Positions 4,986 through 64,000 of a stretch of DNA of 64,000 nucleotides are shown in pieces (within the stretch, counting starts at the first letter, position 1; the number at the start of each line of letters is the position of its first letter). The stretch is from positions 6,966,904 to 7,030,903 of the forward strand of contig OX457034.1 in the NCBI GenBank assembly GCA_949752745.1, written 5' to 3'. Under the pieces are notes generated by a model. That model searched no databases. It worked only from the letters and a program-made list of their open reading frames with translations, and was not told where the DNA came from. This stretch comes from Protula sp. h YS-2021. Lineage: Eukaryota > Annelida > Polychaeta > Sabellida > Serpulidae. Position numbers and translations under genes: made by a program.

Positions 4986-5185
4986 GGGTGACGGTCAGCT
5001 CAGTCGGTAGAGCGTTGGTCTTGTAATCCTAAGGTCCCTGGTTCGAAACCAGCCAGGGGTGGAAAGCGGAGGATTGGCTTTCGCTCAAATTGCCTTAGCT
5101 AAACGACTGCACAAAAAATTCACCACCACGGAATTCAAAATTAGCACAAATGAGTCTTCCGGCCATCCCTTTAAAAATAACCTTG
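4984..5185 (+). repeat. tRNA-derived SINE, copy 1
   Basis: The head has an A-box-like stretch (GCTCAGTCGGTAGAGC), an anticodon-loop-like CTTGTAA (would read UGU, Thr) and a perfect B-box-like GGTTCGAAACC. The acceptor stem does not pair, and the anticodon stem has two mismatches, so this is not a working tRNA. A tail follows that ends in GGAATTCAAAATTAGC, GAGTCTTCCGGCCATCCCTT. The same head and tail occur in reverse at 25910-26096, and the tail alone at 14155-14215, which shows a dispersed SINE family. Confidence 0.7.
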
Positions 5186-46044: not shown

Positions 46045-46279
46045 TTACGTCACACCGCCAGCAACGACTTTCTTAGACCTCTCGTATTTGAAGACGACAC
46101 TGAACATGTCCCCGCCCAGACGTTTGGCGAGCCAGCGGTTCTTTAACACAGCAGTTTTGATGCTATCACAGTTAAATGCGGCGCTGAAGTTGGTGTGGAT
46201 AGCCCGGCCCATGCCCTCCAGGATGATTAGGTCTACCTCGTACTCACGGATCTTCTCCGCTAAGTCGAAGTCCACATAC
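46045..46279 (-). CDS. PANK4 terminal exon (DUF89 C terminus)
   Basis: Acceptor TGCATTTTTTTTCAG, phase 2 in. It encodes [20 protein letters not shown], then [20 protein letters not shown], then [21 protein letters not shown], and ends [10 protein letters not shown] with TAA. EGMGRA-HTN and FSVVFKYE are family hallmarks. Confidence 0.95.
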
Positions 46280-48721
46280 CTGAAAAAAAATGCAGAGTCC
46301 ACATAGCTGAAACCAACAAAGCCCACATGTGTGAAACATAAAAGATCAACGAAACCCGAAACCAAGTCCACAAACCTGACTCTAGATTCTGACTCTATAA
46401 AAATGCTTCATACTATTCCACATCGAAATATAAGTTGTACATATTCTTTTGCAAAGAATGTTTATTAAATTGTTATAACATTTCAACTTTTGCAAAAAAA
46501 AAAAAAAAAAAACCTCCAGAAAGCAACCTTGCACAATCGGGGGGGGGGGGGGGGGGAGGGGGTTCCCCATTTTACCTGAGATCGAGACAGGGGGATCCCT
46601 GGCCACTCTCCATGACGAGCAGCGTGCCGTCCGTCAACGTGTCACTAATCTCCCGGCAGATGGCGCCAACGCGCTTAGTCAGCAATGACAGCTCGTTGTA
46701 CGTGACGTCATTGAGGGCCGGCCGAGAGTTGGCGCATAAAATCACCTGAAAACAAAAAATCACGTGTGACACTGTGTGCGTTGGAAATCAAAGGCAGCAA
46801 CGGGGAATTGTAAAAGCTGTATATAAGTTCATACGCGGATCCAGACGGGAGAAGGTTGTCGGGGTGGGGGTGGGGGGGGGGAAGCAAGTGACTCCCCTCT
46901 TCTCTGTTTCCTAACAAAACAAATCCTCAGTCTATTTTTTTAGAATCACACAACAGGGTTCGATTTCACAGCATCGAGTGGGTAACAGCCACCGCCTCCT
47001 TGCCCTCAAAACACCCCCTCCCCCCGCCCCCCTCCCCCCCCCCTCCGTTTCGCCACAGCCGCACAAGTCATGAATCAGCATATGACCACGGCTTTCAAAC
47101 AAATCACACAAGTTAAGAACAGAAAAAAAAACAAGTGGGTCAGTGAAACTGACTATGTCCCCCGCCGGCGTACAGTCCCAGTCTTTGATTTTGTTAGGTT
47201 AGACTACACCCTTCGTATCACATTCGTGAATTTTAAAATTCCAGCTGGGCCAATGTCCTTGGGCCAACATGGTTCATTTACAATACCAATTCTTGTTACC
47301 ACCCATACTACCTATGTGTATAACATTTTGCCAATTGTTTCAAAAAATGTAGGCTTGAGTGTGTTAACAAACTCATTCCAGTATGTAAGGGTTGTGAAAA
47401 TTTCTGAAGTTCAGCTGGGCCAATGTTCTTGGGCCGACAGGGCTCATTTACAATACCAACCTTTGTTGGTTACAATACTTCCTATATGTAAAATATTTCA
47501 ACAATCGATCCAGAAATGTAGGCTTGAGTGTGTTGACAAACTCATTCGACCGAGTAAAGATTGGGAAAATTTGTGAAGTTCAGCTGGGTCAATGTCCTTT
47601 ACAATACCGATTCTTGCTTGTTCCAGTACTACCCATATATACAATATCTTAACAATCGGTGGAAAAATGTAGGCTTGAGTGTGTTAACAAACTCATCCGA
47701 CTGAGTAAGGATTGGGAAAATTTGTGAAGTTCAGCTGGGCAAATGTCCTTGGGCCGACATGGCTCATTTACAATACCGATTCTTGCTTGTTCCAGTACTA
47801 CCCATATATACAATATCTTAACAATCGGTGGAAAAATGTAGGCTTGAGTGTGTTAACAAACTCATTCGACTGAGTAAGGATTGGGAACATTTTTGAAGTT
47901 CAGCTGGGCCAATGTCCTTGGGCCGACATGGCTCATTTACAATACCGATCCTTGCTTGTTCCAGTACTACCCATATATACAATATCTTAACAATCGGTGG
48001 AAAAATGTAGGCTTGAGTGTGTTAACAAACTCATTCGACTGAGTAAGGATTGGGAACATTTTTGAAGTTCAGCTGGGCCAATGTCCTTGGGCCGACATGG
48101 CTCATTTACAATACCGATCCTTGATTTTTCCAGTACTACCCATATATACAATACCTTAACAATCGGTGGAAAAATGTAGGCTTGAGTGTGTTAACAAAAA
48201 AAGTGTCGACAGACGGACAGACGGACGGACAGACAAACCCGAAAACTATAGTCCCCCGGCGGGGGACTAATTAGTTTGGCCTTATTGAGACTTATATAGC
48301 AGAAAATGAAAAAAAAAATTAGTTTGGCCTTATTGAGATTTATATAGTTGAGGATGAAGCGGACCTTAGTGCCTCGTGACAGCAAGTCTCGGGCAAACGG
48401 GAAAATGCCCATGATGATATCGACACCACTGTTATCCACAAATATCACTGCGCACTTGTGGGCTTCAGCACTGGCCAGTCTCTGCTGCCATTGGTCGAAA
48501 TCGTCAACCAACCACGGCCGCTCTAAAGCATCACGTGTTAATACAGATATGTTATTTATGAAACTATGGTTCTTTTTACATACTTTTTTTTATAGAATAG
48601 GAAATCCTCTTTTTTAATTTTTTTTTGTTTTAAATCTTTTAGGATAAACTTCAAGTGCAATTTCCGATATTTACCATAAATTTACTATTTATTTTTTAAA
48701 GTTGAACGCACACAAGTATTG

Positions 48722-48777
<56 letters not shown>

Positions 48778-49299
48778 TAAACATGTAAAATCAATAAAAA
48801 CAAAGAAAACAAAACCTTCGTTGCACAGCTCCACTATATAGTCTTAGCATGTGTAAGAGAACAATTGAATCGCTTCAGTGGTTACGGAGATATAGCGCCG
48901 ACAAAAAAGTGTCGACGGACGGAGAGAGGACAGACGGACAGACGAACAAACCCTCACCCTGTAATTCCGACAGCGCCCGTTCAAAGCCCAGCTCTTGCTT
49001 TTCCATCCGGGCGGCCACTTCTTTCGCACCCCAGTCGAATACATTTCCCGCCATGAGGCCCATGACCAATGAGAGCTGTCGCTCCTCAAAGTCCATTTTG
49101 TCCAAAGCTTCCAGGCGGTCAGCCAGTGTTTTCAGAGCTTGTTCGTTCTCGTGCTGCTTTTGCTGGTAAAAATAAAAACAAAGGTTTTTATGTAATAGAT
49201 ATACTATAGTGAGATTCAGATGGACTTCTATTAATAGAAGTACACACAGAGGGAGAGCTAGGGGGGTAGAACTGAGTGAGATGAGAGAGTGAGAGAGAG

Positions 49300-49351
<52 letters not shown>

Positions 49352-49433
49352 GGAGAGAAGGAGAGAGAGAGAGTGAGTGTGAGAGAGAGAGAAAGGAAAA
49401 AAAAACAGTGAGAGAGAGAGAAAGAAAGAAAGC

Positions 49434-49464
<31 letters not shown>

Positions 49465-49471
49465 AGAGAGT

Positions 49472-49527
<56 letters not shown>

Positions 49528-49563
49528 AGAAAGAGAGAAAAAAGAGAGAGAGACAGAGGGAGA

Positions 49564-49631
<68 letters not shown>

Positions 49632-52600
49632 CGAAAAGTGTTTACACGGTACTGTGTGTCAACACATGGGTGACTAGTGAGGAGAGATGTACCCTAGGCT
49701 GTGACAGAAGTCGGGAATGGGTTGGGAGAGGGGGGAAATAGGTGAGAACAGCCGAACCTGAGAATACGGGTCGACGAAGTGGAATTCCTCCAGACAGTGC
49801 TCCCGCGTGTCCAGCAAACTCCTCACCGTCAGGGAGCCGTACGCACTGTAACATGAGGAGAGGTGAGGTGAGGGGGGGGGGGGGAGGCGGGGCGGGGGGG
49901 AGGGGGGTCAGCCGTACGCACTGTAACATGAAGAGAGGTGAGGCAAGGAGGGCGGGGGGTCAGCCGTACGCACTATAACATGAGGAGAGGTGAGATGAGG
50001 GGGGGGGGGCAGATATACGCGCTGTAACATGAGGAGAGGTGAGGTGAGGTGAGGTGGGGGGGGGTGGGTAGGTCAGCCATACGCACTGTAACACGAGGAA
50101 AGGTGAGATGAGGTGGGGCGGGGGGGGGGAGGGGGTCAGCCATAACATGGGGACAGGAGGTGAGGGGCGGGGAGGGACGCGCTGTAACATGAAGAGAGGT
50201 GAGGCAAGGAGGGGGGGGGGGGGGGGTCAGCCGTACGCACTATAACATGAGGAGAGGTGAGATGAGGGGGGGGCAGATATACGCGCTGTAACATGAGGAG
50301 AGGTGCGGTGAGGTGAGGTGGGGGGGGGGGAGGTCAGCCATACGCACTGTAACACGAGGAAAGGTGAGATGAGGTGGGAGGGGTGGGGGGGGGGGGGGGG
50401 GTCAGCCATACGCGCTGTAACATGAGGACAGGAGGTGAGGGGCGGGGAGGGACGCGCTGTAACATGAGGAGAGGTGAGGTGAGGTGGGAGGGGTGGGGGG
50501 GGGGGGTCAGCCATACGCGCTGTAACATGAGGACAGGAGGTGAGGGGCGGGGAGGGACGCGCTGTAACATGAGGAGAGGTGAGGTGAGGTGGGGCGGGGG
50601 GGAGGGGGTCAGCCATAACATGGGGACAGGAGGTGAGGGGCGGGGAGGGACGCGCTGAAACATGAGGAGAGGTGAGGTGAGGTGGGAGGGGTGGGGGGGG
50701 GGGGGGGTCAGCCATACGCGCTGTAACATGAGGACAGGAGGTGAGAGGCGGGGAGGGACGCGCTGTAACATGAAGAGAGGTGAGGTGAGGTGGGGCGGGG
50801 GGGAGGGGGTCAGCCATAACATGGGGACAGGAGGTGAGGGGCGGGGAGGGACGCGCTGTAACATGAAGAGAGGTGAGGCAAGGAGGGGGGGGGGGTCAGC
50901 CGTACGCACTATAACATGAGGAGAGGTGAGATGAGGGGGGGGGGGAGGCAGATATACGCGCTGTAACATGAGGAGAGGTGAGGTGAGGTGAGGTGGGGGG
51001 GGGGGGGGGAGGTCAGCCATACGCACTGTAACACGAGGAAAGGTGAGATGAGGTGGGGAGGGGTGGGGGGGGGGGGTCATGAGGACAGGAGGTGAGGGGC
51101 GGGGAGGGACGCGCTGTAACATGAGGAGAGTTGAGGTGAGGTGGGAGGGGTGGGGGGGTCAGCCATACGCGCTGTAACATGAGGACAGGAGGTGAGGGGC
51201 GGGGAGGGACGCGCTGTAACATGAAACGTCAAAATACAAGTGCTGGGGAGGGGAGAGGGGGGAGCCGCACGCACTGCCACACGAAAAGCCCGTCCACGCA
51301 AAATACAGTAAAACTTCAAATGGGGAGGGCCGAGGGGGTGGCGGGGGGGGGGGGTAGAGGGAACAATCCGTACCCGCTGCAACACGTAACAAGAGCTTAC
51401 CACAAAATATATATTTTTTTTATTATTTGCTTCAGAATTCTTATTTTAAATAATACTGTTGACTGAAACCAATCTCTTCTTAAAACCAGTTTAACTGATC
51501 TTCATTATCTTACAATAATTCCAAAAGCTAAAAATAGAAATCGCTAAAGTATGCCACAATATCCCTATCAATAGAGCCCTGAAAAACTTGTTTTAGCTGC
51601 CTGAGAATTTTCTGGACTTTTCCCCGTATTTCCCCATTTTCCAGCTAATTTCTGATTTCTTTCAGCTCGATTCCGAATTTCACTGATTCCAAATTTTCAG
51701 GGTTTCTCCGCTGATTTCGGGATTTTCCGGATTTTCTCGCTGATCTCGGGATTTTCCGAATTTTCCCGCTGATTTTGGAATTTTCCGAATTTTCCCGCTG
51801 ATTTAAAATTTTCAGGGTTTCTCCGCTGATTTCGGGATTTCCCGGATTTTCTCGCTGATTTCGGGATTTTCCGGATTTTCCAGCTAATTTTGGGATTTTC
51901 CGCATTTTCCCGCTGATTTCAAATTTTCAGGGTTTCTCCGCTGATTTCGGGATTTTCCGGATTTTCCCGCTCATTTTCGGATTTTCCGGATTTTCTCACC
52001 AGGGATTTCTCCTCAGCTCGTGTAACCGGCGCACGTATTTCTCCTTGAAGCGCTTGGCGCGCTTTTCCGCGTCCGCAGTACTCGGCTGACTCATTATGGC
52101 GCGCTTCGCGAACTGCAGACCATAATGAAATTAATTATTCGTTAAAAAAAAAAAACCTTTTTTTCTACCGAAATGCTTTGCTTCCCTGCAATCGCAAAGT
52201 CACACGGGCAGAAATGTAGCACAAGATGTTCTAAATGCTCCGCACAGGTTTTAGTGAGAAACTTGGAGAAACTGTCGACGCCGTGAATTTACTTTTCAAT
52301 TTCACGACTGAACATCATTTAAGGCACGATTCATCCACGACTTTGTTTCATTGACAGCACGACTTAATCTCACTGAGTTACTGAGAGCACGACTTGATGC
52401 ACTAACAGCACGACTTGACATCACTGACAACAGGACTTGACATCACTGACAGAACGACTTGACATCACTGACAGAACGACTTGACATCATTGACAGCACG
52501 ACTTGACATCACTGACAGCACGACTTAACATCGCCCACAGCACGACTTGATGTCACTGACAACACGACTTGACATCACGACTTGACATCACTGACAGCAC

Positions 52601-55600
52601 GACTTGATGTCACTGACGACGACTTGACATCACTGACAACACAACTTGACATCACTGACAGCGCAACTTGACACCATTGACAGCACGACTTGACATCACT
52701 GACAACAGGACTTGACATCACTGACAGAACGACTTGACATCACTGACAGAACGACTTGACATCATTGACAGCACGACTTGACATCACTGACAGCACGACT
52801 TAACATCGCCCACAGCACGACTTGATGTCACTGACAACACGACTTGACATCACGACTTGACATCACTGACAGCACGACTTGATGTCACTGACGACGACTT
52901 GACATCACTGACAGCACGACTTGACATCACTGACAGCGCGACTTGACACCATTGACAGCACGACTTGACACCACTGACAGCACGACTTGACATCATTGAC
53001 AGCACGACTTGACACCACTGACAGCACGACTTTACCTCATCGACGGCGCTCTCGAAGCACTGCAGCCAGTAATTTCGAGCAGCTTCGTCCTGTGTCAGAT
53101 CCATGGTGTCGGGGAGGTAGCTGGCAGGATCCAGCAGCAGCGGGCAGCTGACCAGAGGCTTGGCGAATCGGTCCAGCTCTAACATGTCAAACTGAAAAAT
53201 TCCAGGCACGACGTTTTAATCCAATTATTGTCTGACAACATCCTCAATTCGGTACAGAACGAAACACCATTTCACCTCCTGTAACAGTGACGAAGAACAA
53301 TGTCGATCGAGTTCTCACTTTTTCTTTTTTTTTTTTTGCACTTACTGATTTTTTTTCGATCCAACGAAATATCTCACGTGGTCGAGTCTTGAACTAAACA
53401 AACAATACAACATACTGCCGTTTTTCCCTGGTGCTTTTTTACCCCACAGTGCCGATAGACACCCCATTACTACACACCACCTATCTGTACAGGGTGCCAT
53501 TTTTTCTCAGGAACAGCCTTTTGACCATGGTACTGTTTTTCTCCGCGGTACTTACTATTCTTTCCAGCAGTACTGCTTTTTATTGTGATGCTGAGTTTTT
53601 ATCCTAGTACTGCTTGTATACCCCTGTTTTTTTACACATTATGGAACTACTTACTTACTCGGCACTACTCTTTTGCCAAGGTTCTGCTTTTTACCATGGT
53701 GCCGTTTATTTACCGTACCACTACTTTTCTTACCGTGTTAATGTTCAGTTACTGTGGTACTTCTTTTCCTGCCATGGTGCTGTTCATTTAGAATGGTACT
53801 ACTTTTCTTACCGTAGTACTGCGTGGCCTGGGCAGAAATGGCTGTTCGTTGCCTTTGGGACTCTGCAGACCGGAACTGCGGGCGTAGTTCTCTCCCCACG
53901 TCGTCTGTTTGCCGAACATGTACCGCTGTGAATCTACAACGTGTATAGCTGTGAATCTATAACTTTGTACCGTTGTGAATCTACAACATGTACCGCTGTG
54001 AATCTACAACGTGTATAGCTGTGAATCTGTAACATGTACTGCTATGAATCTCAAACATGTACCACTGTGAATCCAAAACATGTACCGCTGTGAATCTACA
54101 ACACGTCCCGCTGTGAATCTACATGTATCTCTGTGAATTTACAACATGTACCGCTGTGTCTACAACATGCACCACTGTGAATCTATAACATGTGCCACGT
54201 GGAATCTATAACATACCAACACCATCTTCCCGTGAATTCTCACTCACACCCCCGGGACGGACATGACAGTTCTTCACAAGAAATGAAAAAAAAGTTTAAC
54301 CGTGGGATCAGGAACATATCGCTCAAGATAGCAGATGGTGAGAGCACTCATCGGGGGCCTGTGCCGAAAGAGGGGCGACTGCTTGGTGGATTATGCAGAA
54401 AGAGGGGCGACTGTTTGGCGGCGTACGCCTAAAGAGGGGCGACTGTTTGGTGGATTATGCCGAAAGAGGGGCGAATGTTTGGTGGATTATGCAGAAAGAG
54501 GGGCGACTGTTTGGCGGCGTACGCCTACAGGAAGCGACTGTTTGGTGGCTTATGCTGAAAGAGGGGCGACTGTTTGGCGGCTTATGCCGAAAGAGGCGCG
54601 ACCGTTTGGTAGGCCTATGCCTTTTGAGCGGCGACAGCTTGGTGGAACTACCTCCACGTAGTGACGACCGTTTGGCGGGCCTATGCCTTTTAAGGGGCGA
54701 CAGCTTGGTGGAACTACCTCCCGTAGGGACGACCGTTTGGCGGGCCTATGCCTTTTAAGGGGCGACAGCTTTGTGGAACTACCTCCCGTAGGGACGACCG
54801 TTTGGTCAGTCTCTGCTCTTGTACGGCCGGTACCGGTGGTTTGGTAGGCCTATGTCATTCGAGGGGTAACGGTTTGGCAGGACTGTGCCCGAGATGAAGA
54901 AGGACAACTGTACACACGCACACACACACGCGCAGAATGTACAAACCCTCTAAGTCCCCCTTGGTCGACAGACTGACAGACACACGCTCACACACACGCG
55001 CAGAATGTACAAACCCTCTATGTCCCCCTCGGTCGACAGACTGACACACATACATATACAGAATATACAAACCCTCTATGGTTCCCCTCGGCCGACAGAC
55101 TGACACACATACATACACAGAACGTACAAACCCTCCATGTCTCCCCTCAGTCGAGGAGAAACAAAAAACGCTAAGTGAGAGCCGACCAACCTTCTTCCAA
55201 GACGCCCTTCATGAACGCGCCGATGGCTCCCAAGTAGCCCTCGTGACGTAAAAACATGGCCTGCACCTCGCCCTGCCAATGTCAAGGTCATACCAGTCAT
55301 ACGTCACAAGCTCATACGTTTTTAAGTTTCTTTCTTTTCTAGTCATATTTTCAATTCCTTCTGGTCTACCAAAAAAAAAAAAAAAAAGCCAAAAAAATAC
55401 ATTAAAATACCAAAAAGTATGTTTACGACTGATACGACTTTTCTATTATTTTTACTGTTACAATTGAACTATGACGCCAGTACCAACAACAGGGTGATAC
55501 TTATGATGCCAGTACCAACAACAGGGTGATACTTATGACGCCAGTACCAACAACAGGGTGATACTCATGATGCCAGTACCAACAACAGGGTGATACTTAT

Positions 55601-58600
55601 GATGCCAGTAGCAACAACAGGGTGATACTCATGATGCCAGTACCAACAACAGGGTGATACTTATGATGCCAGTACCAACGACAGGGTGAGACTTATGACG
55701 CCAGTACCAACAACAGGGTGATACTTATGATGCCAGTACCAATAACAGGGTGATACTTATGACGCCAGTACCAACAACAGGGTGATACTTATGATGCCTG
55801 TACCAACAACAGGGTGATATTTATGACGCCAGTACCAACAACAGGGTGATACTTATGATGCCAGTACCAACAACAGGGTGATACTTATGATGCCAGTACC
55901 AACAATAGGGTGATACTTATGATGCCAGTACCAACAACAGGGTGATACTTTTCTGCAACTACTGAGGCGAAGTAGTTCTCGTTTCTTATTTTACCGTGTG
56001 TTGCAAGTGGGATGGGACCGTTACACATTATTATAAATAACTTTCGATTTTAGTTTTTAGCTTTAAAAAAATCGTGTGTTGCAGGCGGAGAACCCCCCCC
56101 CCCATATCAACCCCCCGGGGGGGCGGGGTGATTTTCATGAATTCGTTGCATGCGGCTTTTCCTTTCTTACACCAAGCACTTTATTCATGTTTATCCTGTT
56201 TTTGACCAAATTCAAGCAGTTTTTTTTTGGCACCTTGGTACGTACTTTATCATTTTATAGCCGGTTTTCCAAAGAAAATATGTGTTTAATCGGTTTGGGG
56301 TCATCCATAAAGTACGCACGCACGTACACAGGGAAGAGCGGGGTCCGTACGCAATTTTTTAAAACCTGTCTCAAACATATTTTTATGTAAATAAATAACC
56401 AAATACATCGATTTACAAACTAAATACTATACTCTTTTTAGTACAATGAATATTTTAGTCACATTTTAAGGTATGTTGGCATGTACACTTTGAATTTTGT
56501 CACTGATTAATTGGCATTATCTTTAGTTTTTAAAACAAACTGACATTTTTTCAATATAGTACAACATACGTGCGTACAGGAGGGGGGGGGGGGGGGTCTA
56601 GGCCACTGCGTACGGGGAGGGGTTAAAAACTAAAAAAATTTTGCGTACGTTCTTTATGGATGGCCCCTTTATGCGATTTTCCAGTATAAATTATGTAAGA
56701 AAGAACGGTCATGGATTTTACTACAATATACAATTGACCCGCAAAATACAATTGACCGCCGTAGCCCCAGCACAGTGACAAGACACCATGGTTAGCACCT
56801 TCATATGTGAACCAATGAACCAGTGACACGGCTTATATTTTACGTCACTGGTATTGTTATTCCATTCAACTATTCACAAGATGTACTGTTAATGACAAAA
56901 CAACCCACCATAACAAAACAACGCCCATTAAATAAATGGTTGCTAATGTCTTGGCGGTAAATTAACACCTATTCATAAAAGCAGTTACTTTCTCACAACA
57001 AAAAAATCTCTGTTGTTTCCCTGTTGTTTCTTCTACTCATTATTTGAATTTGAATGAAAATGCGCATGCGAATGACGCTAATAAAAAGCTCGCACGTAAC
57101 AAGTCGCCCCCCCCCCACTTCCCGACCCCCCATTGTTTGTAAACAATAAGATGCCAAATGATACGTATTAGATATATCACACCTCTCAGAGAGCGATAAT
57201 AGTGATGTATTCTTTGAGGCGTGACCATAGAAATTAAAGCACATCCTTTTTGTTTCTCTTTTTTGCCTTTTGTTTTGATGGGGCGGCGGGGGGGGGGGGG
57301 GGGGGGAGGTCGAGGAGGAAGCGGGGGCGGGGGGGGGGGGGTGCTGGGTTGTGTAACAAATATGGTTGACGGGGAGGGAGGGGGGCTGTTCTTAAGCAAT
57401 TGGACATTTAATGCCTCATTGGACAGATGATACGAAAGCTGTTGACATAAACATTATATATATATACATAAATATATAAACATATGTAAAAATATATGTT
57501 CATGTTAGTACCAAAATCTAGAAATATTGCACAAATATGGTTGGATGGTAAAAGCATATTTTGGTAATTTTAAAAAAAAATGTTAGTAGGAAATTTCGTC
57601 TCGAAGTGCTGGTGTGGATGATACGAAAATACCTGGCACTTCAGTACACATAAGCACTCGGACCAAGAGAGAAAGTGAAGAACTTGAGTACAATAAGATG
57701 GACATAAGCAGCGCAGATGTATTAATGAGTACAGGTGTACTCGCAGCAGATTGGGCAACCAGTGAGATGAGCAGTCAAAGTCATGTGACCGGTGTTGATA
57801 TCACTGACTTCACGGATTACACAGCAGCACGGATGGGACCGTTTCTGGACGACAACACCAGCTGGGACACCACCCACATCGACGCCAGCCTCGCCACTAC
57901 AATAGCCACGTCGATGGGACACTTTCTGGACGACAACACCAGCTGGGAGACCACCCACATCGACGGCAGCCTCGCCACCACAGCAGCCACGTCGATGCAT
58001 TACAAGCCTGGCTCTCTCGATGACTCGCAGCTCGATTTCGTCGGCAGCGAAGGCGAGCGCTGGATGTTCATCTGTCTGTGCGTCGTCTTCACTTCCGTCT
58101 CGTGTGTGGTCAACATCTTCACGTTCTACGTCATCAGCGCGTACCCGCGCTACGACACGCCGCGCTACCTCATCATCAAGACGTCGACACTCTTCAACCT
58201 CACACTCATCCTCTCGAGCATCGTGGCCCAGGCCATGCCACGCCTTCTGCTGCCTCGCAACCGCTACCCGCTCCTTCTCGGCCGCATCTTCTCCGATTGC
58301 GCCATCATCGCTTTCTTTATGGATCTCCAGTCGACGGCATTGTTGAGTTTAGCACAGTACATTTACTTCTGCCACCCATACAAATACATGCGTCTGGTGA
58401 CGCGGCGGAGCGTACTCGCTGGCTATGCCGCTATAGCCACCATTTCGGCCACCTACACCATAGTAACGGAGATTCTGATTGGACGAGAGCTCAAGTACCA
58501 CAGTCTGACGCACCAGCTGCCACTCACCAAGTTCCACATCCTTTTCCAGGCAATATTCTTCATGCTCCTGCCACTCCTTATTATTTTATTCTGTGCTTGG

Positions 58601-61600
58601 AAAATACAAGCCGTCGTGAAGAGGCACAAGAGTGTTATCCACAGCTCGGGAAAACAGCCCGCTCGGGGAGCCTCCTTCGACCCGAGCCTGAGGAGCGGTG
58701 CCACAGCGGCCGTCCGACTGATCCTCCTCATTTCCGGCGCCTTTGTCGGCATCTATCTGGGTCACTACGTCATCAAATGTATCCTGGCAGTGGCAGGAAT
58801 TGATTATAATGAGATCGAGAGCCGGAGCGACATGAGGAATGGGACCATTCTGCGCGTGGTGGACCTGTGTGTGGCACTGCTCTACCCGACCATCAACCCT
58901 GTCATCTACTTGTTGGTTGACAAGCAGCTGAGATGGTCCCTTGGAATTCTGCGATGTCGCAACAAGCCTCGACCAATCACAACGCTTGCCTAAGAGAGAA
59001 AACGAGATGTTGACTTTGCTGTGGACAGCACGCCTCTATCCAGCACACGAAATTCAGGTCATTTAAAACTCCCTAAACTGTGGCGTAAATCATCTCGAAA
59101 GAACGTATATCCCGAACCAAGAGCCCTTCTATGATGATTAAGAGAGACAAAAGAAAACAATGACTCAGTGAGGCTGTAATACGAGTCACGCCCCCCCCCC
59201 CCACCTGGGGAAGGGTAGGGTTGAAGGTGAGCGTTGCAAAAATCACGAGAAACGTTTTTCACATTCAGTGATAAAAAATCACCAAACTAGCCACTTTCAC
59301 AAACAGCTTTTAAGTTCTGATGCTGAATAGAAAATGGAAAAATTGTTATTCGCGACCGTATGCAACTAATTATTGCCATCATTTCAATCCTCGGCGTGTC
59401 ATTTTTTTATTTCGGGCGCATTACTTTTTATGAAGATCTGAAGCCCTGGCAATTCTAAATATAGAAAAATCCAAGAATATCAAGAAAACTCCAAGAATAT
59501 CAAATCTGCTGCGGGTTCAGCAGAGTTCAAATCTGAATCTCCGTTAAGTTCGAAGCACGAATTTAAATTGTCATATAAATAAGACAGTACATTTTCAGAA
59601 AAAAGTTGTGATTGGGGTAGTCCGGATTCGATAACGGGGGGTCGTAAGTGTGACATCATAGTGTTGGGCTGCCCGAAAAGCCTTTGTACCATAAGGTGTA
59701 TACGGTGAAATGCTGTGCTTATTTTCCGAATACTTATGCCGTCATACCAACTGGCATTTTTGTTGTTATTTATCTGTTATTTTTTTTTAATTTCCTGGTT
59801 GTTGAAACTGAGTTGTTCTTAAATTACGAGACATAACGGTATATATTTTTGTTTTCACAAAACACGGTGTTACCAATACACGTGTAACTTTAATGTTTAA
59901 TGTGAGGTGCCGCTAATAAAAGTTAAAATATGGCGTTTCCTTTTTGAAGTGGAAACTTTATTAAAGCCGAGGATGCCGGACAGAGGCTCCGTGAGGGCTT
60001 GACGGAGGCTGCGTGAAGGCTTGACGGAGGCTGTGTGAAGGCTTGTCGGAGGCTGCGTGAAGGCTTGACGGAGGCTATGTGAAGGCTTGTCGGAGGCTTC
60101 GTGAAGGCTTGACGGAGGCTGCGTGAAGGCTTGACGGAGGCTGCGTGAAGGCTTGACGGAGGCTTCATGAAGGCTTGACGGAGGCTGCATGAAGGCTTGA
60201 CGGAGGCTGCGTGAAGGCTTGACGGAGGCTGTGTAAAGGCTTGACGGGGGCTGCGTGAAGGCTTGACGGAGGCTGCGTGAAGGCTTGACGGAGGCTGTGT
60301 GAAGGCTTGACCGAGGTTGCGTGAAGGCTTGACGGAGGCTGTGTGAAGGCTTGACGGAGGCTTTATGAAGGCTTCACGGAGGCTGGCGAGGTGTTCCGTT
60401 CCAGCCAAGGCGTTGTCATTAATGTCAAGAAAGACTACACTATGGACGCGTTCTTTATTCGTTGTTCAGGGAAAACACTCCGTTTAATTGTTTGAAAAAG
60501 AAAATAATAAAATAAGAAAGTTATGAGGTGAATGAGGAAAAAAATAGTGTTAAAAAAAAGGACGAAAAAGACCAAAAAAAAAAAGAGTTTAGGGGGAAAA
60601 GTCATTCCATTGCTGAAACAGTCCCCACATTGAGAAAAAGTCCTTTCATGAACAAAATGTGGTAAATTATTACTTTTTTTTAAATAACGGATTTTGATTG
60701 GGCTGGGGTTGGGGTGAGAGAGGGCGTGGGAAATGATCACTTATTTCAGTGTCACATGAGGTGAAACCCTGGTAACGACGGTAACGAAATTCACGGTTAG
60801 CAGGAAAAAAAAACATCCACACTGATTTCCTTCTCTAAAGCCCAGTAAACAAAATTACTTTTCCTTATTAAGTGTTACTTTATTTATTTGTTTTTATGTC
60901 TTTATTTCTATATCAACTTTGAAAATGAAATTCCTTACCTTTGACCAATAATTAATGGCATACGATATTGTGTGCATTGTGATGGGATGTCCGCGAATAA
61001 AATAGCCACCGAAATAGATCTTCTTCAGGCCGTGCAGTTTGGCGTTGAGGCAGGCGATCTGGCCGATGTCGTTGCTGATAGAGATCAATAAGCCTCTTAG
61101 CTGTGTCGGCATCTCGGAAGGCCGGGACTGAAACGCGACATACGCGACTTGAAACATACCCCATCTTTGTTCTCGCGACCCCCCCCTCCCGCCGATCCTC
61201 GCCCTTGCTCCCTCCCCCCATCGCCCCTACTCGTCTCTCCCCAGCCATACTGCCACAAATTTTCCTGCGCTCTATGGAAATCGCACCCCTCCAGTTCTCC
61301 TCATCACCCCTTTCTTGCCCCTCCCCGCTGCTCACCTTCACCCCTTGTCTCTTACCTTCACCCCCCTCGCCCCTCCTCCTTGACCCCCCCCCCCCCCCCA
61401 ACCCCTAGTCCCTCTCTTTCGTCCCTCCCCGAGTAGCTTCGCTATGCACCCCCCCCCCCTCGTCCCTCCTCCCAGCAATACTCACACTTCTTATCATGTG
61501 CGCTGCAGAAGCCGAGCACCCCCCCCCCCACGGTCCCTCCTCCACAGCAATACTCACACTTCTTATCACGTGCGCTGCAAAACCCGAGCACCCCCCCCGT

Positions 61601-64000
61601 CCCCCCTCCCCAGCAATACTCATACTTCTTGTCACGTGCGCTGCAGAACCCGAGCACCCCCCCCCCGTCCCCCCTCCCCCAGCAATACTCACACTTCTTA
61701 TCACGTGCACTGCGGGCGGCCTTGCCGAAGCTGCAGGCTATGACGTCACCGGGCAGGCCCAGCAGGTCGTACGAGCCACCGTAGATGTCCTTCACCAGCA
61801 TGTCCACGTTCCTGTGGTCACCCGCTGCCGCTAGCTCCAGCAGCTCGTCGAATCCCTATCAGTATCGTAACATATAAGTTTCGTGTAAGACAGGAAGTGA
61901 ATACAACGTGAACACATGTGACGTCACCACCTGACCATACCATCACCCTAGGCACCCCCCCCCCACCCCGATGCGGAAGTATTTCCCAAATGTCCGTTTA
62001 TCCTGTACAGTATAATCTCTTAATTGTGAACAGATTTTTGCGATGAGGCAAAATGTTGACGTCACTTATGAGAACGGAGCTTAAGATACAGCAAGACAGG
62101 CTCGATAGAAAACACGATCAAAATATCTTCGCGAAATTAAACGCTTGCACTGCACCAAAATAATCCGACAAAGCCAGCTTTAGTAAGCCTTTTCAGTCTT
62201 TTTTTTTTCACTGCTGGTTGTAAATGAATACACTGAGGTGGGTGAAACTGAAGGAACACAAGTTGTTTTGGGATTGCTGGATACGTGGAAAGTTTTTTTT
62301 ATTAACACATGGTTTGAAAAAAAACTCACAAACTAATTTAACTTGAATAGGACTTGAAAACCAAAATAAGCAACAACGCCAAACAAAAAAGCCGCAGTTT
62401 CTAACAGGCGTTACCTTGGCCTGAAATTATAATTCGAACAACATGTTTTCCATAAAAAGTTCAGTTAGAGTGATAAAAAAAAAACAAGAAAAAAAACAAA
62501 AAAACAATAACATATTTCTGTTAATTAAACTTTAATATTCAAGAATCAATGCTCAGCTCTGTTGTCCAAAATGAGATGGTAAAATATCAAGGAAATACAT
62601 AAGCCCATCTTCACCAAATATCCAGTAAATGCCATGGCCCCATCTCGCGAAAAATCCAGTAAATATATAATCCCATCTTCACAAAAAATTCAGTAAATAC
62701 ATGATCCAATCTTCACCAAATATCAAGTAAATACCTGATCCCATCTTCGCAAAATATCTAATTAGTAAATGATCTCGTCTTCCTAAAATATCCAATACGT
62801 ACATGATCTCCAGCTTCATCAGATTTGTCTTTACTGCAATCCCAAGCAGTCTCATTAGTTTTCTTTTTCTACTAAATGAACTTACAACAGTATAAAGCAC
62901 GATACCTTCGCTTTGGTGAGTATTGAACCCAGACCCCAGAAGGTGCCGCCACCGAGAGAGGTACCGCCTATCCTCTCGTACTTAGTCTCTGACTCCACCT
63001 GAAGAAAGAAAAAAAATAAGAAAAAGAAAAAGGACCAAAAAAATACTTAAAGACTGGTCTGAACTAAGCAAAGTAGGAATACCGTGAGGACTTCCGGATT
63101 GTACAATCACGCCTCGGCAATTTCCGGATAATCAATAATGCCCAATGATTGGCCAGTTGTTCACACGAGATTTGGTAAATTTGGGTACATGAAACATTTC
63201 GCATTGTGATATTTCCGGAAGTTGCCGAGGTGTCCCGAAAATCCCGATGATAATATGGTAGTAATCCTGCCTGAAGCACATATTTTTCGATAATACATTT
63301 GAATGACAAGAATGCTTTTCCTCTAGCAAGGGAAGAGGACCCAGCCCCTCTATTTCGGCTCCTAAATATCGCCCGCCCACCTTTAAGATGCTGGCATAGC
63401 TAGCATTGTCAACTGGCAGGTACAGGAACACAGACACCACCCCCCCGCCAGATCCTACCTCCTCCACCTTAAGATGCACACGTCACCACCAGTGTTAACC
63501 AGAGCAGTGTGCAAGCCCACATATTTCCAACAGCCCCCCCCCCCATCAGCTAAACACGGCCATCAATAGTTGAAATTTCCAAGTCCAGCTGGTCCATTTT
63601 CCTTGGACGAACCGGGCCCATTTACAATACCAATCTGTGTTTGTCACCATAGAAGCTACATACCAAGTTTCATTAAAATCTTGCAGGAGTTTTTTAAGTT
63701 ATCGTGTTAACAAGCTTTTGATGACAGACCGACCGACAGACACACGCGCACGATCGCATATATTCCCCCCTGTGGGAATAAACCAGCAAGTACGGAAACA
63801 CAGAAACCCTCATCCCTCTCCCCTCCACTACATGTCACCCCCAACCTTTAAGATGATGATGTTGACCGATGTTGACCAGCAGGTTGGAGAAAACAGTCCC
63901 CCTCCCCCCCCCCCCCCCCCACCAGATACCACCACCTCCCAGCCTACCTTTAAGATGCTGATGCCGCTGCCGATGTTGACCAGCAGGTCGGAGAAAACAG
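46045..64000 (-). CDS. PANK4, thirteen coding exons, 5' end beyond window
   Basis: Exons (minus, 5' to 3'): 64000-63948 (partial), 62998-62906, 61855-61693, 61127-60939, 55272-55191, 53933-53812, 53191-53036, 52112-52000, 49845-49758, 49162-48958, 48522-48365, 46745-46576, 46279-46045. The first five encode the later half of the pantothenate-kinase-like domain, the rest a linker and the C-terminal DUF89 phosphatase domain, which in human PANK4 removes phosphate from 4'-phosphopantetheine and related metabolites and so restrains CoA synthesis. The metal-site motifs FVDNSG (48425 region) and NSRPALND (46720 region) are intact. All phases agree except exon 61127-60939, which has one extra base. 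Several junctions abut tandem arrays that copy them. Family identity is very secure from motif-by-motif agreement with vertebrate PANK4. Confidence 0.95.
46576..46745 (-). CDS. PANK4 exon 12 of those visible
   Basis: Acceptor TTTTTTGTTTTCAG, donor CAG|GTAAAA. 170 bases, phase 0 to 2. Contains [20 protein letters not shown] and ends [10 protein letters not shown]. The Asp of PALND is a metal ligand in DUF89 proteins. Confidence 0.95.
47155..48270 (+). mobile_element. Pearl/DINE (Helitron-like) element with six core repeats, in a PANK4 intron
   Basis: Left end near GACTATGTCCCCCGCCGGCG. Six tandem core units of about 169 bp follow, marked by TTCAGCTGGGCCAATGTCCT at 47240, 47411, 47578, 47728, 47897 and 48066; the third has lost about 19 bp. 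Then come a GACAGACGGACAGACGGACG microsatellite (48209-48237) and hairpin AGTCCCCCGGCGGGGGACT followed by AA, so the element ends CTAA at 48270. The order of parts is that of bivalve pearl-type elements. Single-core relatives lie at 1638 and 63501. Open frames inside are not genes. Confidence 0.7.
48365..48522 (-). CDS. PANK4 exon 11 of those visible
   Basis: Acceptor GATGCTTTAG, 158 bases, phase 1 to 0. Encodes [16 protein letters not shown], then [20 protein letters not shown] and [10 protein letters not shown]. The DN of VDNSG is the metal-binding pair. The donor, AAG|GTCCGC, is unusually poor. Confidence 0.93.
48721..48776. repeat. (ATA)n microsatellite
   Basis: About 18 AAT/ATA trinucleotides in a PANK4 intron. 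Confidence 0.97.
48958..49162 (-). CDS. PANK4 exon 10 of those visible
   Basis: Acceptor TTTTTATTTTTACCAG, donor CAGG|GTGAGG. 205 bases, phase 0 to 1. Contains [20 protein letters not shown], a DUF89 signature, after a charged helix. Confidence 0.95.
49280..49629. repeat. (GA)n microsatellite
   Basis: Purine-only GA tract with GAAA and GTGA interruptions in a PANK4 intron. Confidence 0.97.
49758..49845 (-). CDS. PANK4 exon 9 of those visible
   Basis: Acceptor CTCTCCTCATGTTACAG, donor CAG|GTTCGG. 88 bases, phase 2 to 0. Encodes [20 protein letters not shown] and FHFVDPYSQ, one of the best conserved stretches of PANK4. Confidence 0.95.
49846..51240. repeat. G-rich array of splice-acceptor copies
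   Basis: About twenty units built on GCTGTAACATGAGGAGAGG, TGAGGTGAGG and poly(G), each preceded by GTCAGCCATACGCG/GTCAGCCGTACGCA. On the gene strand each unit reads C-rich tract, CTCTCCTCATGTTACAG, then CGCGTATGGCTGA or TGCGTACGGCTGA. This copies the real acceptor and the first 10-12 exonic bases of the exon at 49845. Two unit types alternate (one with GGACAGGAGGTGAGGGGCGG). The plus strand has many G-runs able to form quadruplexes. Confidence 0.9.
51620..51995. repeat. ~29-bp minisatellite (CCGCTGATTTCGGGATTTTC)
   Basis: About thirteen units of GCTGATTTCGGGATTTTCCG GATTTTCC type. The array ends directly at the donor of the PANK4 exon 52000-52112. On the gene strand it is purine-rich (GGAAAATCCCGAAATCAGCG). 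Confidence 0.88.
52000..52112 (-). CDS. PANK4 exon 8 of those visible
   Basis: Acceptor TTTCATTATGGTCTGCAG, donor TG|GTGAGA. 113 bases, phase 0 to 2. Encodes [20 protein letters not shown] and [17 protein letters not shown], a basic helical linker between the two domains. Confidence 0.9.
52325..53035. repeat. ~22-bp minisatellite at a PANK4 donor
   Basis: More than 25 units of GACTTGACATCACTGACAGCAC. A block of about 270 bp is itself duplicated (52420-52640 and 52690-52910 nearly identical). The right end coincides with the donor of the exon at 53036: GATGAG|GTAAAGTCGTGCTG on the gene strand against GATGTCAAGTCGTGCTG in the repeat. Confidence 0.92.
53036..53191 (-). CDS. PANK4 exon 7 of those visible
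   Basis: Acceptor GGAATTTTTCAG, donor GAG|GTAAAG. 156 bases, phase 0 to 0. Encodes [40 protein letters not shown] and [12 protein letters not shown], which follows vertebrate PANK4 nearly residue by residue. Confidence 0.95.
53480..53810. repeat. Degenerate TACTGCTTTTTACC repeat
   Basis: Diverged units such as TACTGCTTTTTATTG, TTCTGCTTTTTACCATGGTG and GTACTACTTTTCTTACCGTA. The right end contains the donor (CTTACCGTAGTACT) of the exon at 53812, and an almost identical CTTACCGTG lies at 53729. Confidence 0.6.
53812..53933 (-). CDS. PANK4 exon 6 of those visible
   Basis: 122 bases, phase 1 in, phase 0 out, donor ACG|GTAAGA. Encodes [50 protein letters not shown] matches vertebrate PANK4. The acceptor ACACGTTGTAG is the only one that gives the right phase; it lacks a pyrimidine tract because the preceding intron end is a minisatellite. 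Confidence 0.88.
53934..54215. repeat. ~23-bp array of splice-acceptor copies
   Basis: About twelve units of ACATGTACCGCTGTGAATCT followed by ACA. On the gene strand each reads TGTAG|ATTCACAGCGGTACATG, that is, the acceptor AG plus about 17 exonic bases of the exon at 53933. Confidence 0.9.
54345..54880. repeat. Compound minisatellite (GGGGCGACTGTTTGG)
   Basis: First about eight 32-bp units (AAAGAGGGGCGACTGTTTGG), then 66-bp units (GGCGACAGCTTGGTGGAACT, ACCTCCCGTAGGGACGACCG). Intronic; frames with repeated [16 protein letters not shown] are artefacts. Confidence 0.88.
54904..55145. repeat. ~60-bp minisatellite
   Basis: Four units containing CAGAATGTACAAACCCTCTA, CCCCTCGGTCGACAGACTGA and a CACACATACA tail. 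Ends about 45 bases before the PANK4 donor at 55191. Confidence 0.88.
55191..55272 (-). CDS. PANK4 exon 5 of those visible
   Basis: Acceptor TGACATTGGCAG, donor GAAG|GTTGGT. 82 bases, phase 0 to 1. Encodes [27 protein letters not shown], the end of the kinase-like fold ([11 protein letters not shown] is invariant in the family). Confidence 0.95.
55467..55950. repeat. 32-bp minisatellite
   Basis: About fifteen nearly identical units of ATGATGCCAGTACCAACAAC followed by AGGGTGATACTT. High identity suggests recent expansion or active homogenisation. Confidence 0.97.
55951..57589. other. PANK4 intron, left of the nested receptor
   Basis: No exon seen. Holds the MITE at 56297 and G-rich tracts at 56580-56597, 57283-57307 and 57328-57340. 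The last 150 bases before the receptor are AT-rich with TATATATATA near 57456, but no promoter can be assigned. Confidence 0.5.
56297..56667. mobile_element. MITE with GGGGYCATCCATAAAG ends
   Basis: Left end GGGGTCATCCATAAAGTACG, right end (inverted) GGGGCCATCCATAAAGAACG; about 25 bp of terminal inverted repeat with two to three mismatches. Interior about 320 bp, no frame. No convincing target duplication. The end motif is also the unit of the array at 22620. Confidence 0.65.
57590..58993 (+). CDS. Divergent seven-transmembrane receptor (nested in PANK4 intron)
   Basis: Intronless frame. Counting from 57614, residues 1-149 are an acidic, Ser/Thr-rich extracellular N terminus; helices lie at about 150-174, 184-208, 226-252, 266-289, 306-332, 365-393 and 411-435. 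Class A marks that remain: Asn in helix 1 (VVNIF), Cys at the top of helix 3, CHPYKY after helix 3, Pro in helix 5 and NPVIY in helix 7. Lost: the helix 2 Asp, the Arg of DRY (AQY at 247-249), Trp of helix 4, CWxP of helix 6 and a cysteine in loop 2. N-glycosylation sites NTS occur at 81 and 108. The open frame runs back to TAG at 57587; the first ATG is Met29 (57698, AAGATGG), the likely start if unspliced. A lineage-specific orphan or chemoreceptor-like GPCR is the best description; ligand and G-protein unknown. Confidence 0.85.
   Translation, partial: EISSRSAGVDDTKIPGTSVHISTRTKRESEELEYNKMDISSADVLMSTGVLAADWATSEMSSQSHVTGVDITDFTDYTAARMGPFLDDNTSWDTTHIDASLATTIATSMGHFLDDNTSWETTHIDGSLATTAATSMHYKPGSLDDSQLDFVGSEGERWMFICLCVVFTSVSCVVNIFTFYVISAYPRYDTPRYLIIKTSTLFNLTLILSSIVAQAMPRLLLPRNRYPLLLGRIFSDCAIIAFFMDLQSTALLSLAQYIYFCHPYKYMRLVTRRSVLAGYAAIATISATYTIVTEILIGRELKYHSLTHQLPLTKFHILFQAIFFMLLPLLIILFCAWKIQAVVKRHKSVIHSSGKQPARGASFDPSLRSGATAAVRLILLISGAFVGIYLGHYVIKCILAVAGIDYNEIESRSDMRNGTILRVVDLCVALLYPTINPVIYLLVDKQLRWSLGILRCRNKPRPITTLA
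57833..57994 (+). repeat. In-frame 81-bp duplication in the receptor N terminus
   Basis: Two units (57833-57913, 57914-57994) each encode 27 residues: [20 protein letters not shown] and [20 protein letters not shown], each followed by ATT-ATS. Both keep the NTS glycosylation site. Nucleotide identity is about 88%, so the duplication is fairly recent. Confidence 0.95.
58994..59984. other. Receptor 3' flank within the PANK4 intron
   Basis: No gene seen. AATAAA occurs at 59915, more than 900 bases after the receptor stop, and could serve as a distant polyadenylation signal. Confidence 0.45.
59985..60385. repeat. 22-bp minisatellite
   Basis: About eighteen units of GGAGGCTGCGTGAAGGCTTGAC. Frames on the minus strand ([19 protein letters not shown]) are artefacts. 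Confidence 0.96.
60386..60938. other. PANK4 intron remainder
   Basis: AT-rich, poly(A) patches; nothing else seen. Confidence 0.5.
60939..61127 (-). CDS. PANK4 exon 4 of those visible, with a one-base frame slip
   Basis: Acceptor TATGTCGCGTTTCAG at 61128-61129, donor AAG|GTAAGG. The exon joins the previous one in phase 1, giving [17 protein letters not shown]. Its 3' part must be read in another frame to give [20 protein letters not shown] and [20 protein letters not shown]. The switch is near 61080-61090 (GATCTCTATC on the gene strand, where one base, about 61083, is surplus). Length 189 does not fit phase 1 to 0, which needs 188. Frame B before and frame A after the slip both match PANK4 without a gap. 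It is either a real frameshift, an allele, or an assembly error. Confidence 0.9.
61128..61479. other. PANK4 intron, C-rich
   Basis: Strongly pyrimidine-rich (CCCCTCC, CCCTTGTCTC) with a poly(C) run at 61384-61399. Frames rich in Pro/Ser are artefacts. Confidence 0.6.
61480..61692. repeat. ~67-bp array of splice-donor copies
   Basis: Three tandem units (starting about 61480, 61547, 61612), each with AGCAATACTCACACTTCTTA, TCACGTGCGCTGCAGAACCC and a poly(C) tract. On the gene strand each reads CGCACGTGATAAGAAGT|GTGAGTATTGCT, a copy of the real donor and the last 17 or so exonic bases of the exon ending at 61693. Each copy also gains an upstream TTCTGCAG. Confidence 0.9.
61693..61855 (-). CDS. 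PANK4 exon 3 of those visible
   Basis: Acceptor GATACTGATAG (weak tract), donor AAGT|GTGAGT. 163 bases, phase 0 to 1. Encodes [40 protein letters not shown] and [21 protein letters not shown] and SFGK are kinase-fold hallmarks. Confidence 0.94.
61856..62905. other. PANK4 intron
   Basis: AT-rich; 62570-62800 carries about eight degenerate units of CAGTAAATACATGATCCCAT, CTTCACAAAATATC. Nothing else seen. Confidence 0.6.
62906..62998 (-). CDS. PANK4 exon 2 of those visible
   Basis: Acceptor TTTTTTTCTTTCTTCAG, donor AAG|GTATCG. 31 codons: [31 protein letters not shown]. It carries the substrate-binding [10 protein letters not shown] loop. The Arg of YERIGGTS (codon 62972-62974) aligns with catalytic Arg207 of human PANK3, a position changed to Trp in human PANK4. 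Confidence 0.95.
63379..63500. repeat. Decayed tandem copies of the PANK4 exon-1 end, part 1
   Basis: ACCTTTAAGATGCTGGCATAGC ... GGCAGGTACAGGAACACAG at 63379-63433 is about 65% identical to the real exon end at 63946-64000, followed by CGCCAGATCCTACCTCCTCC, which matches the intron beside the real exon, and a further CACCTTAAGATGC at 63468. None is a usable exon. Confidence 0.7.
63501..63783 (+). mobile_element. Short pearl/DINE-like repeat element, copy 2
   Basis: Near-collinear with 1638-1923 (GAGCAGTGTGCA start, CATTTACAATACC, AAGCTACATACCAAGTTTCA, GACCGACCGACAG, end CTGTGGGAATA). It interrupts the tandem copies of the PANK4 exon end. Confidence 0.65.
63784..63900. repeat. Decayed tandem copies of the PANK4 exon-1 end, part 2
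   Basis: 63844-63896 is about 85-90% identical to the true exon end but two bases shorter; on the gene strand it would read [10 protein letters not shown] and then lose the GSGIS motif and the frame. 63782-63802 holds a further fragment (CCAGCAAGTACGGAAACACAG). Confidence 0.8.
63948..64000 (-). CDS. PANK4 exon 1 of those visible (cut by the window edge)
   Basis: Ends at donor AAG|GTAGGC in phase 0. Encodes [25 protein letters not shown] is the nucleotide-binding loop of the pantothenate kinase fold. The 5' part of the gene, including the position of catalytic Glu138, lies to the right. Confidence 0.93.

Follow-up and report, generated by a model that had tools for sequence, protein, structure and literature searches.

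Tandem arrays at exon borders copy splice junctions in PANK4 and in unrelated genes of a serpulid annelid

Main finding

The window analyzed here is a 64,000-nucleotide stretch of the genome of the serpulid annelid Protula sp. h YS-2021 (GenBank GCA_949752745.1, contig OX457034.1; C11:6966904–7030903 of the 863-Mb assembly, which comprises 218 contigs). The right third of the window contains the gene PANK4 on the minus strand, and four of its splice junctions adjoin tandem arrays whose units hold the splice site together with 6 to 46 exonic bases. Similar arrays occur at junctions of chaperonin and adaptin genes in the same genome. Border-spanning tandem repeats of this kind have been named “mirages” in the alcohol dehydrogenase gene (Adh) of amphioxus (PMC3087553). 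We consider it probable, at roughly four in five, that the PANK4, chaperonin, and adaptin arrays are such junction-spanning minisatellites, tolerated at the exon edge.

Junction copies in PANK4

The original prediction named five PANK4 junctions as abutting minisatellites whose units contain the junction itself. All 24 PANK4 junctions in the window were tested by aligning the 20 exonic bases nearest the border to the junction's own intron (up to 2.5 kb) and comparing the score with those of 3000 equal-length stretches elsewhere in the window, with Benjamini–Hochberg q values calculated over the 24 junctions. Four junctions exceeded 3000 of 3000 null draws, each with q = 0.002: (i) the exon-1 donor of the original prediction (14 of 20); (ii) the exon-3 donor (18 of 20); (iii) the exon-6 acceptor (19 of 20); and (iv) the exon-9 acceptor (12 of 20). 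At these four junctions, alignment of the array units with the exon borders recovered exonic bases and the splice site in the copies, and the scores agree with the earlier statement that four junctions include at least 10 exonic bases. The same four were singled out by a previous run, which used junction-spanning queries of 26 bases and a null of 100 shuffled introns plus 200 other stretches; the exon-2 acceptor reached p = 0.04 to 0.05 in that run, and the exon-7 donor p = 0.015 to 0.02, owing to its intronic part. Firm copies are present at 4 of the 24 junctions in the window and at 4 of the 30 in the full gene.

The fifth predicted site, the exon-7 donor, is not supported as a case of junction copying: its exonic end scored 7 (p = 0.61), and the array lies on the intron side only. 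Three junctions that the original prediction did not list were borderline, namely the exon-6 donor (p = 0.011, q = 0.051), the exon-13 acceptor (q = 0.053), and the exon-8 donor (p = 0.021, q = 0.073). The other 16 PANK4 junctions in the window gave no sign of exonic copies (p > 0.13). Tandem Repeats Finder (TRF) reported arrays at 4 of the 5 predicted sites and placed the boundary of the exon-9 array 28 bases short of the exon border. At 63379–63900, it reported nothing within the window; degenerate copies align there, and over the following 1165 bases the array is obvious. The arrays and copies at PANK4 junctions are as follows.

63372–64000, minus strand: tail of the exon-4 donor array (exon 1 of the original prediction and its copies), with one good decoy and three degenerate ones
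61446–61713, minus strand: exon-3 donor array, 66-bp unit, 4 units including the true one, with 21 exonic bases and the donor per copy
53915–54214, minus strand: exon-6 acceptor array, 23-bp unit, each unit with the acceptor and at most 19 exonic bases
53720–53818, minus strand: exon-6 donor array, 39-bp unit, exonic copy borderline
52380–53044, minus strand: exon-7 donor array, 22-bp unit, begins at the donor, intron side only
51683–51997, minus strand: exon-8 donor array, 29-bp unit, begins at the donor, exonic copy borderline
49846–51284, minus strand: exon-9 acceptor array, unit of about 50 bp plus higher-order units, with 23 decoys and 6–15 exonic bases aligned
46296–46379, minus strand: two degenerate exon-13 acceptor copies, 11–12 exonic bases, borderline

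The true exon-4 donor and the PANK4 gene model

The exon that had been placed at the edge of the window as exon 1 (64000–63948) is itself a decoy copy. Homologue searches of the next 20 kb after the window place the true PANK4 exon end at 65114, 1.1 kb past the window. This end, the donor of exon 4 of the full gene, is followed by a 95-bp array with 15 decoy donors (found with a pattern requiring GT or TG); in ungapped comparison, 11 of the 15 share 42 or more of the final 46 bases of the exon. In the tail of the array within the window, the good decoy donor lies after 63948. Retested, the true exon-4 donor reached the full 20 of 20, the best of 1000 null draws being 11. No copies showed at the remaining six junctions of the upstream exons (p = 0.13 to 0.92); the limits of full-gene exons 1–4 used in this retest were off by one to four bases at five places, with the exon-4 donor exact.

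The PANK4 model in the window consists of 13 exons and was verified by alignment against ten animal homologues with 63–70% identity (70% for the annelid Ridgeia and 63% for Branchiostoma). The top-scoring database matches, among the best 120 of 2883 listed, come from Ixodes, Ridgeia, Lingula, Lamellibrachia, and Owenia. Exon numbers follow the original prediction, except for the full-gene exon 4 with its donor at 65114. The exons to which we refer are listed below.

62906–62998, minus strand: exon 2, no junction copies
61693–61855, minus strand: exon 3, donor copied
60939–61127, minus strand: exon 4 in the numbering of the original prediction, with a one-base frame break relative to the homologues
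55191–55272, minus strand: exon 5, from the gene model and homologue alignment
53812–53933, minus strand: exon 6, acceptor copied, exon start ATTCACAG
53036–53191, minus strand: exon 7, from the gene model and homologue alignment
52000–52112, minus strand: exon 8, from the gene model and homologue alignment
49758–49845, minus strand: exon 9, acceptor copied
46045–46279, minus strand: exon 13, the last, from the gene model and homologue alignment

The frame break in the exon at 60939–61127 is either a real variant or an assembly error. Intron 4 contains, on the opposite (plus) strand, a single-frame gene for a rhodopsin-type G-protein-coupled receptor (PF00001; 57590–58990), whose N-terminal part carries an 81-bp tandem duplication (57832–57997). 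A 169-bp array in intron 11 (47242–48198) resembles, by eye, single copies at 63580–63760 (intron 1) and at about 1636–1920, and its unit looks like a dispersed element. About 9.3 kb past the window, a plus-strand neighbor gene of PANK4 (L009:9330–9826), which is outside our counts, has an exon end and donor repeated 4.8 times: the exon ends in RPDNATFHIW, followed by the donor GTATGT and then by about four copies of both.

Structure of the arrays and direction of copying

The PANK4 arrays correspond to mirages in several respects. The tandem unit spans the exon–intron boundary and holds exonic bases; both donors and acceptors are copied, so that 5′ and 3′ boundaries are affected alike; the array units in this genome, of about 23 to 149 bp, are of minisatellite size; and many, not all, of the copies keep AG or GT, in PANK4 and in the other genes. 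AG is kept in all 23 aligned copies of the exon-9 acceptor and in 7 of the 8 aligned copies of the exon-6 acceptor (8 of 10 units when units are found by an anchor motif), and 2 of the 3 exon-3 decoys have GTGAGT, the third having ATGAGT. A pyrimidine-rich stretch accompanies the site in 22 of the 23 exon-9 decoys (0.68 to 0.84; 0.52 in the outermost). Because both AG and the pyrimidine-rich stretch are copied, the exon-9 unit resembles a complete 3′ splice site. Median unit identity is 0.85 at exon 9, 0.83 at exon 6, and 0.88 at exon 3, with a pairwise range of 62–100%.

At the exon-9 acceptor and the exon-4 donor, the exon-side sites join the protein to its homologues without gaps; the exon-3 and exon-6 borders fall in stretches whose length varies between species. 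In the ten-homologue alignment, the copied exonic codons are strongly conserved at the exon-4 donor and at the exon-9 acceptor (CAYGS), moderately conserved at the exon-3 donor (ARSARDKK), and not conserved at the exon-6 acceptor. Since the copied part at the two strongly conserved borders consists of codons common to other animals, sequence would have flowed there from exon to intron. The direction that had been proposed, copying of exon into intron, thus appears firm in these two cases and less so at the exon-3 donor with its moderately conserved codons.

Chaperonin and adaptin genes

Because PANK4 had been picked for the pattern, an independent sample was taken: two gene families, chosen solely for having many exons, were profile-searched in the same genome. 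Chaperonins (PF00118) gave 67 matches, from which nine loci were analyzed, leaving out a tandem cluster (C8:61.29–61.50 Mb), an intronless copy on C6, and two single-match places. Adaptins (PF01602) gave 28 matches, and 5 of 8 places were analyzed, at two of them with two matches each (2 of 3 and 2 of 5). Ten of the 107 predicted junctions, in 14 loci, had copies at p < 0.01, where about one was expected, and nine of these scored 18–20 of 20. The chaperonins contributed 6 of 77 junctions (five scoring 18 to 20 of 20) and the adaptins 4 of 30 (all scoring 18 to 20 of 20), which carries the pattern beyond PANK4. The extreme is a chaperonin exon (C8:7.10–7.12 Mb) preceded by 29 decoy acceptors and followed by 30 decoy donors, the donors aligning over 30 exonic bases. 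Over both families, 91 of 96 spanning copies keep GT or AG, and exon-interior 20-mers with an intron copy are few (11 of 817), all of them within border-spanning arrays.

Two further features of the chaperonin loci were observed. The cluster at C8:61286312–61498541 consists of chaperonin-like copies in tandem, with seven matches to the same profile stretch at equal or nearly equal scores. In the locus at C8:7.10–7.12 Mb, C8:7105346–7105495 and C8:7107231–7107395 hold one coding exon of a single gene in two divergent forms, like mutually exclusive exons.

Placement of the arrays and rival explanations

The strongest rival explanation is that duplication has no border preference: in introns rich in minisatellites, some arrays would cross borders by chance, and these would still be mirages. 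In PANK4, 38% of 1892 intron-interior, non-low-complexity 26-mers have a local copy (score of at least 15), compared with 5 of 24 junction-spanning 26-mers. These coverage figures rule out the notion that borders are richer in repeats than intron interiors. Exon-interior 26-mers with an intron copy numbered 3 of 414, all from the decoy exon. The original prediction had held that mere adjacency in a repeat-rich intron does not explain the arrays; the exonic copies are real, as it stated, but intron repetition at 38% explains much.

The placement test treated each array as grown from a single unit dropped at a random position of the collapsed intron. For PANK4, 4 of 13 arrays were border-spanning versus 1.8 expected (P = 0.08); with two sub-threshold arrays included, 6 of 15 were border-spanning versus 2.4 (P = 0.017), a count biased by how these arrays were found, and cruder null models gave P values from 0.00008 to 0.007. 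Chaperonins had 5 border-spanning arrays versus 2.0 (shortest period) to about 3.3 (P = 0.06 to 0.23; 3.2 expected and P = 0.23 with the best-scoring period), and adaptins had 4 versus 0.8 (shortest period) to 1.2 (best-scoring period; P = 0.009 to 0.03), the latter speaking against chance. With the shortest TRF period as the seed, the two families together had 9 versus 2.8 (P = 0.0026, or 0.0073 with 15% removed as coding), and addition of PANK4 gave 13 versus 4.1 (P = 0.0003); the four PANK4 arrays in this pooled count include the exon-7 array and miss the exon-9 array, which TRF ends 28 bases short. Taking the shortest TRF period of a merged array as the seed lowers the expectation. With the best-scoring period, the two families had 9 versus 4.4 (P = 0.037), and versus 5.2 with coding removed (P = 0.083). 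The border excess is therefore 1.7- to 3.2-fold depending on the length of the seed unit and is not secure. For the proposal that duplication was seeded at exon borders, the shortest period gives P of about 0.003 and the best-scoring period P = 0.04 to 0.08, and the odds that duplication truly prefers borders are about even; chance crossing stands at the same level. The reality of the copies is independent of this excess.

Beside the coverage figures and the best-scoring-period results, several observations weigh against our interpretation. The junctions of the chaperonin and adaptin genes were predicted from profile matches and simple splice matrices. At least one predicted chaperonin acceptor (CCT_F 14803) was itself a decoy and was corrected to 14832, and the exon at 20011 has an upstream copy that was tested as a match of its own (CCT_F 19552); the array at junctions 20011 and 19552 was counted once. 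All three PANK4 exon-3 decoys are in frame and stop-free over 207 bases, and the exon-4 donor decoy at +198 is likewise in frame and stop-free, so that a harmless protein extension via the exon-3 decoys or the +198 decoy is possible.

These in-frame exon-3 decoys also favor a second explanation, in which the decoys serve as families of alternative donors and acceptors, with selection for transcript diversity maintaining them. It would also agree with the fact that 91 of 96 chaperonin and adaptin copies, and all 23 exon-9 copies, retain their splice dinucleotide. However, a stop codon follows within 18 codons in 22 of the 23 exon-9 decoys and within 31 codons in all 8 exon-6 decoys. In the exon-9 unit alignment, the splice-site bases lie within the anchor motif, so that their invariance is built in; several columns outside the motif do not vary either, and therefore no selection on the decoys is visible. 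Measured from exon 1 of the original prediction, all 7 donor decoys of exons 1, 3, and 6 kept the frame; selection on the reading frame of the decoys was rejected, as the 15 decoys of the true exon-4 donor are spread over all three frames. In addition, reverse transcription PCR (RT-PCR) of the amphioxus globin mirages points to regular splicing (PMC3087553). We regard selected use of the decoys as improbable.

An assembly artefact, in which junctions were multiplied by wrong read overlap, is very unlikely. A misassembled mirage is described in an amphioxus draft (PMC3087553), and the frame break in the PANK4 exon could be a base-level error as well as a real variant. By contrast, the copies differ from one another at many sites (62–100% pairwise), unlike assembly stutter, and the arrays are found in unrelated genes on several contigs spanning 33 to 114 Mb.

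Intron gain by tandem genomic duplication, reportedly proposed by Rogers in 1989, is the least probable explanation. It would involve the same type of event, a duplication across a splice-like site (PMC3443670), and both intron ends would stem from one duplicated AGGT segment; in the four PANK4 introns, no such pair of ends was found, as the opposite exon ends have no clear copy (p = 0.99, 1.00, 0.14, and 0.02, the last belonging to a separate array), and the two ends of these introns thus do not resemble products of a single duplicated site. Whereas that process creates introns, existing introns grow here.

Other loci of the window

Two similar cases had been proposed in an LDLRAD3-like gene. 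Both turned out to be mere adjacency, the units lacking exonic bases by eye.

22625–22779, plus strand: 28-bp array in the LDLRAD3-like gene, begins about 10 bases past a donor; adjacency only
23524–23641, plus strand: array in the LDLRAD3-like gene, ends at an acceptor; adjacency only

This gene has one weak homologue only, and its upstream exons could not be placed. The DSP gene (12818–13972) is a single exon and hence unusable as a control. A weak Rfam tRNA match (33.2 bits; gathering threshold 29) lies at 4997–5057 on the plus strand.

Relation to known systems

The original prediction knew of no named description of such arrays. They do have a name: mirages, introduced by Canestro et al. 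in 2002 (PMC3087553, PMC3902484), are described in amphioxus Adh and globin genes and, in further lancelet work, in PGBD5 and troponin C (PMC3902484). Reported units measure 10–160 bp (PMC3087553, PMC3902484); those of the globin genes BflGb6 and BflGb9 measure 150–160 bp and occur at 5′ and 3′ boundaries, and BflGb6 has 6 units in one haplotype and 3 in the other (PMC3087553). As far as these sources describe them, amphioxus mirages and the PANK4 arrays agree in unit size (from tens of bases up to about 160 bp), in the retention of AG or GT by many of the copies, and in the position of the authentic exon at the array edge. They differ in that the host here is a spiralian, that several junctions of one gene are affected, and that the arrays reach 30 copies, in contrast to the 6 and 3 of BflGb6.

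Among the literature matches listed, no mirage from an annelid or mollusc was found. In humans, a minisatellite of the gene 6-16 (IFI6) is said to provide multiple splice donors, the extra donors reportedly being used (Turri et al., 1995); like the PANK4 arrays, it is a tandem array at an exon border that gives several donors. The earthworm metallothionein gene, with intron minisatellites and duplications of the fourth exon that are absent from the transcript (PMC12783039), may, from what that report describes, be an unrecognized mirage. Human genes in segmental duplications contain internal tandem repeats at exon–intron boundaries that form novel introns or alternative transcripts (PMC2812944). 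These resemble our arrays in that minisatellite units lie at exon borders and can shift splicing, and differ in that they affect young paralogues, whereas conserved housekeeping genes are affected here. A minisatellite of Caenorhabditis elegans has been tied to alternative splicing by its motif content, with no copied borders mentioned in the excerpted text of that report (PMC4039745). New here are the spiralian host, the finding that a single genome has such arrays in several genes unrelated to each other, and array sizes of up to 30 decoys in almost identical exonic context.

Proposed origin and implications

If the arrays are junction-spanning minisatellites, as we favor, a tandem duplication of about 20–150 bp would have spanned the exon border and then expanded by slippage or unequal exchange. 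The original exon and its own splice site would stay at the outer end of the array, and all new copies would be intronic. Such a duplication would be tolerated because the original exon and site are kept and the new material is confined to the intron. The exon-side site is presumably the one that is mostly used in the animal, in which case the product would be unchanged while the intron gains a row of decoys; a slip to a decoy would often give a premature stop and hence would often be removed.

A broader proposal for the lineage has two parts: that border-spanning duplication is one of the chief ways in which introns grow, and that the spliceosome, faced with up to 30 sites in nearly identical flanking sequence, selects the one next to the exon by position or exon definition alone. 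We regard this combination as rather unlikely. If it were true, these genes would offer a naturally occurring test of how splice sites are chosen when sequence hardly varies.

Decoys can be called as exons or sites in annotation, as happened with exon 1 of the original prediction and with one predicted chaperonin acceptor. In the literature searched, mirages were known from lancelets only, and the several spiralian genes affected here suggest that mirages can arise wherever minisatellites are active. The arrays are natural constructs in which the same splice site is repeated many times in a near-identical exonic context. They make it testable what besides sequence guides the spliceosome's choice among copies, and how introns grow from their edges.
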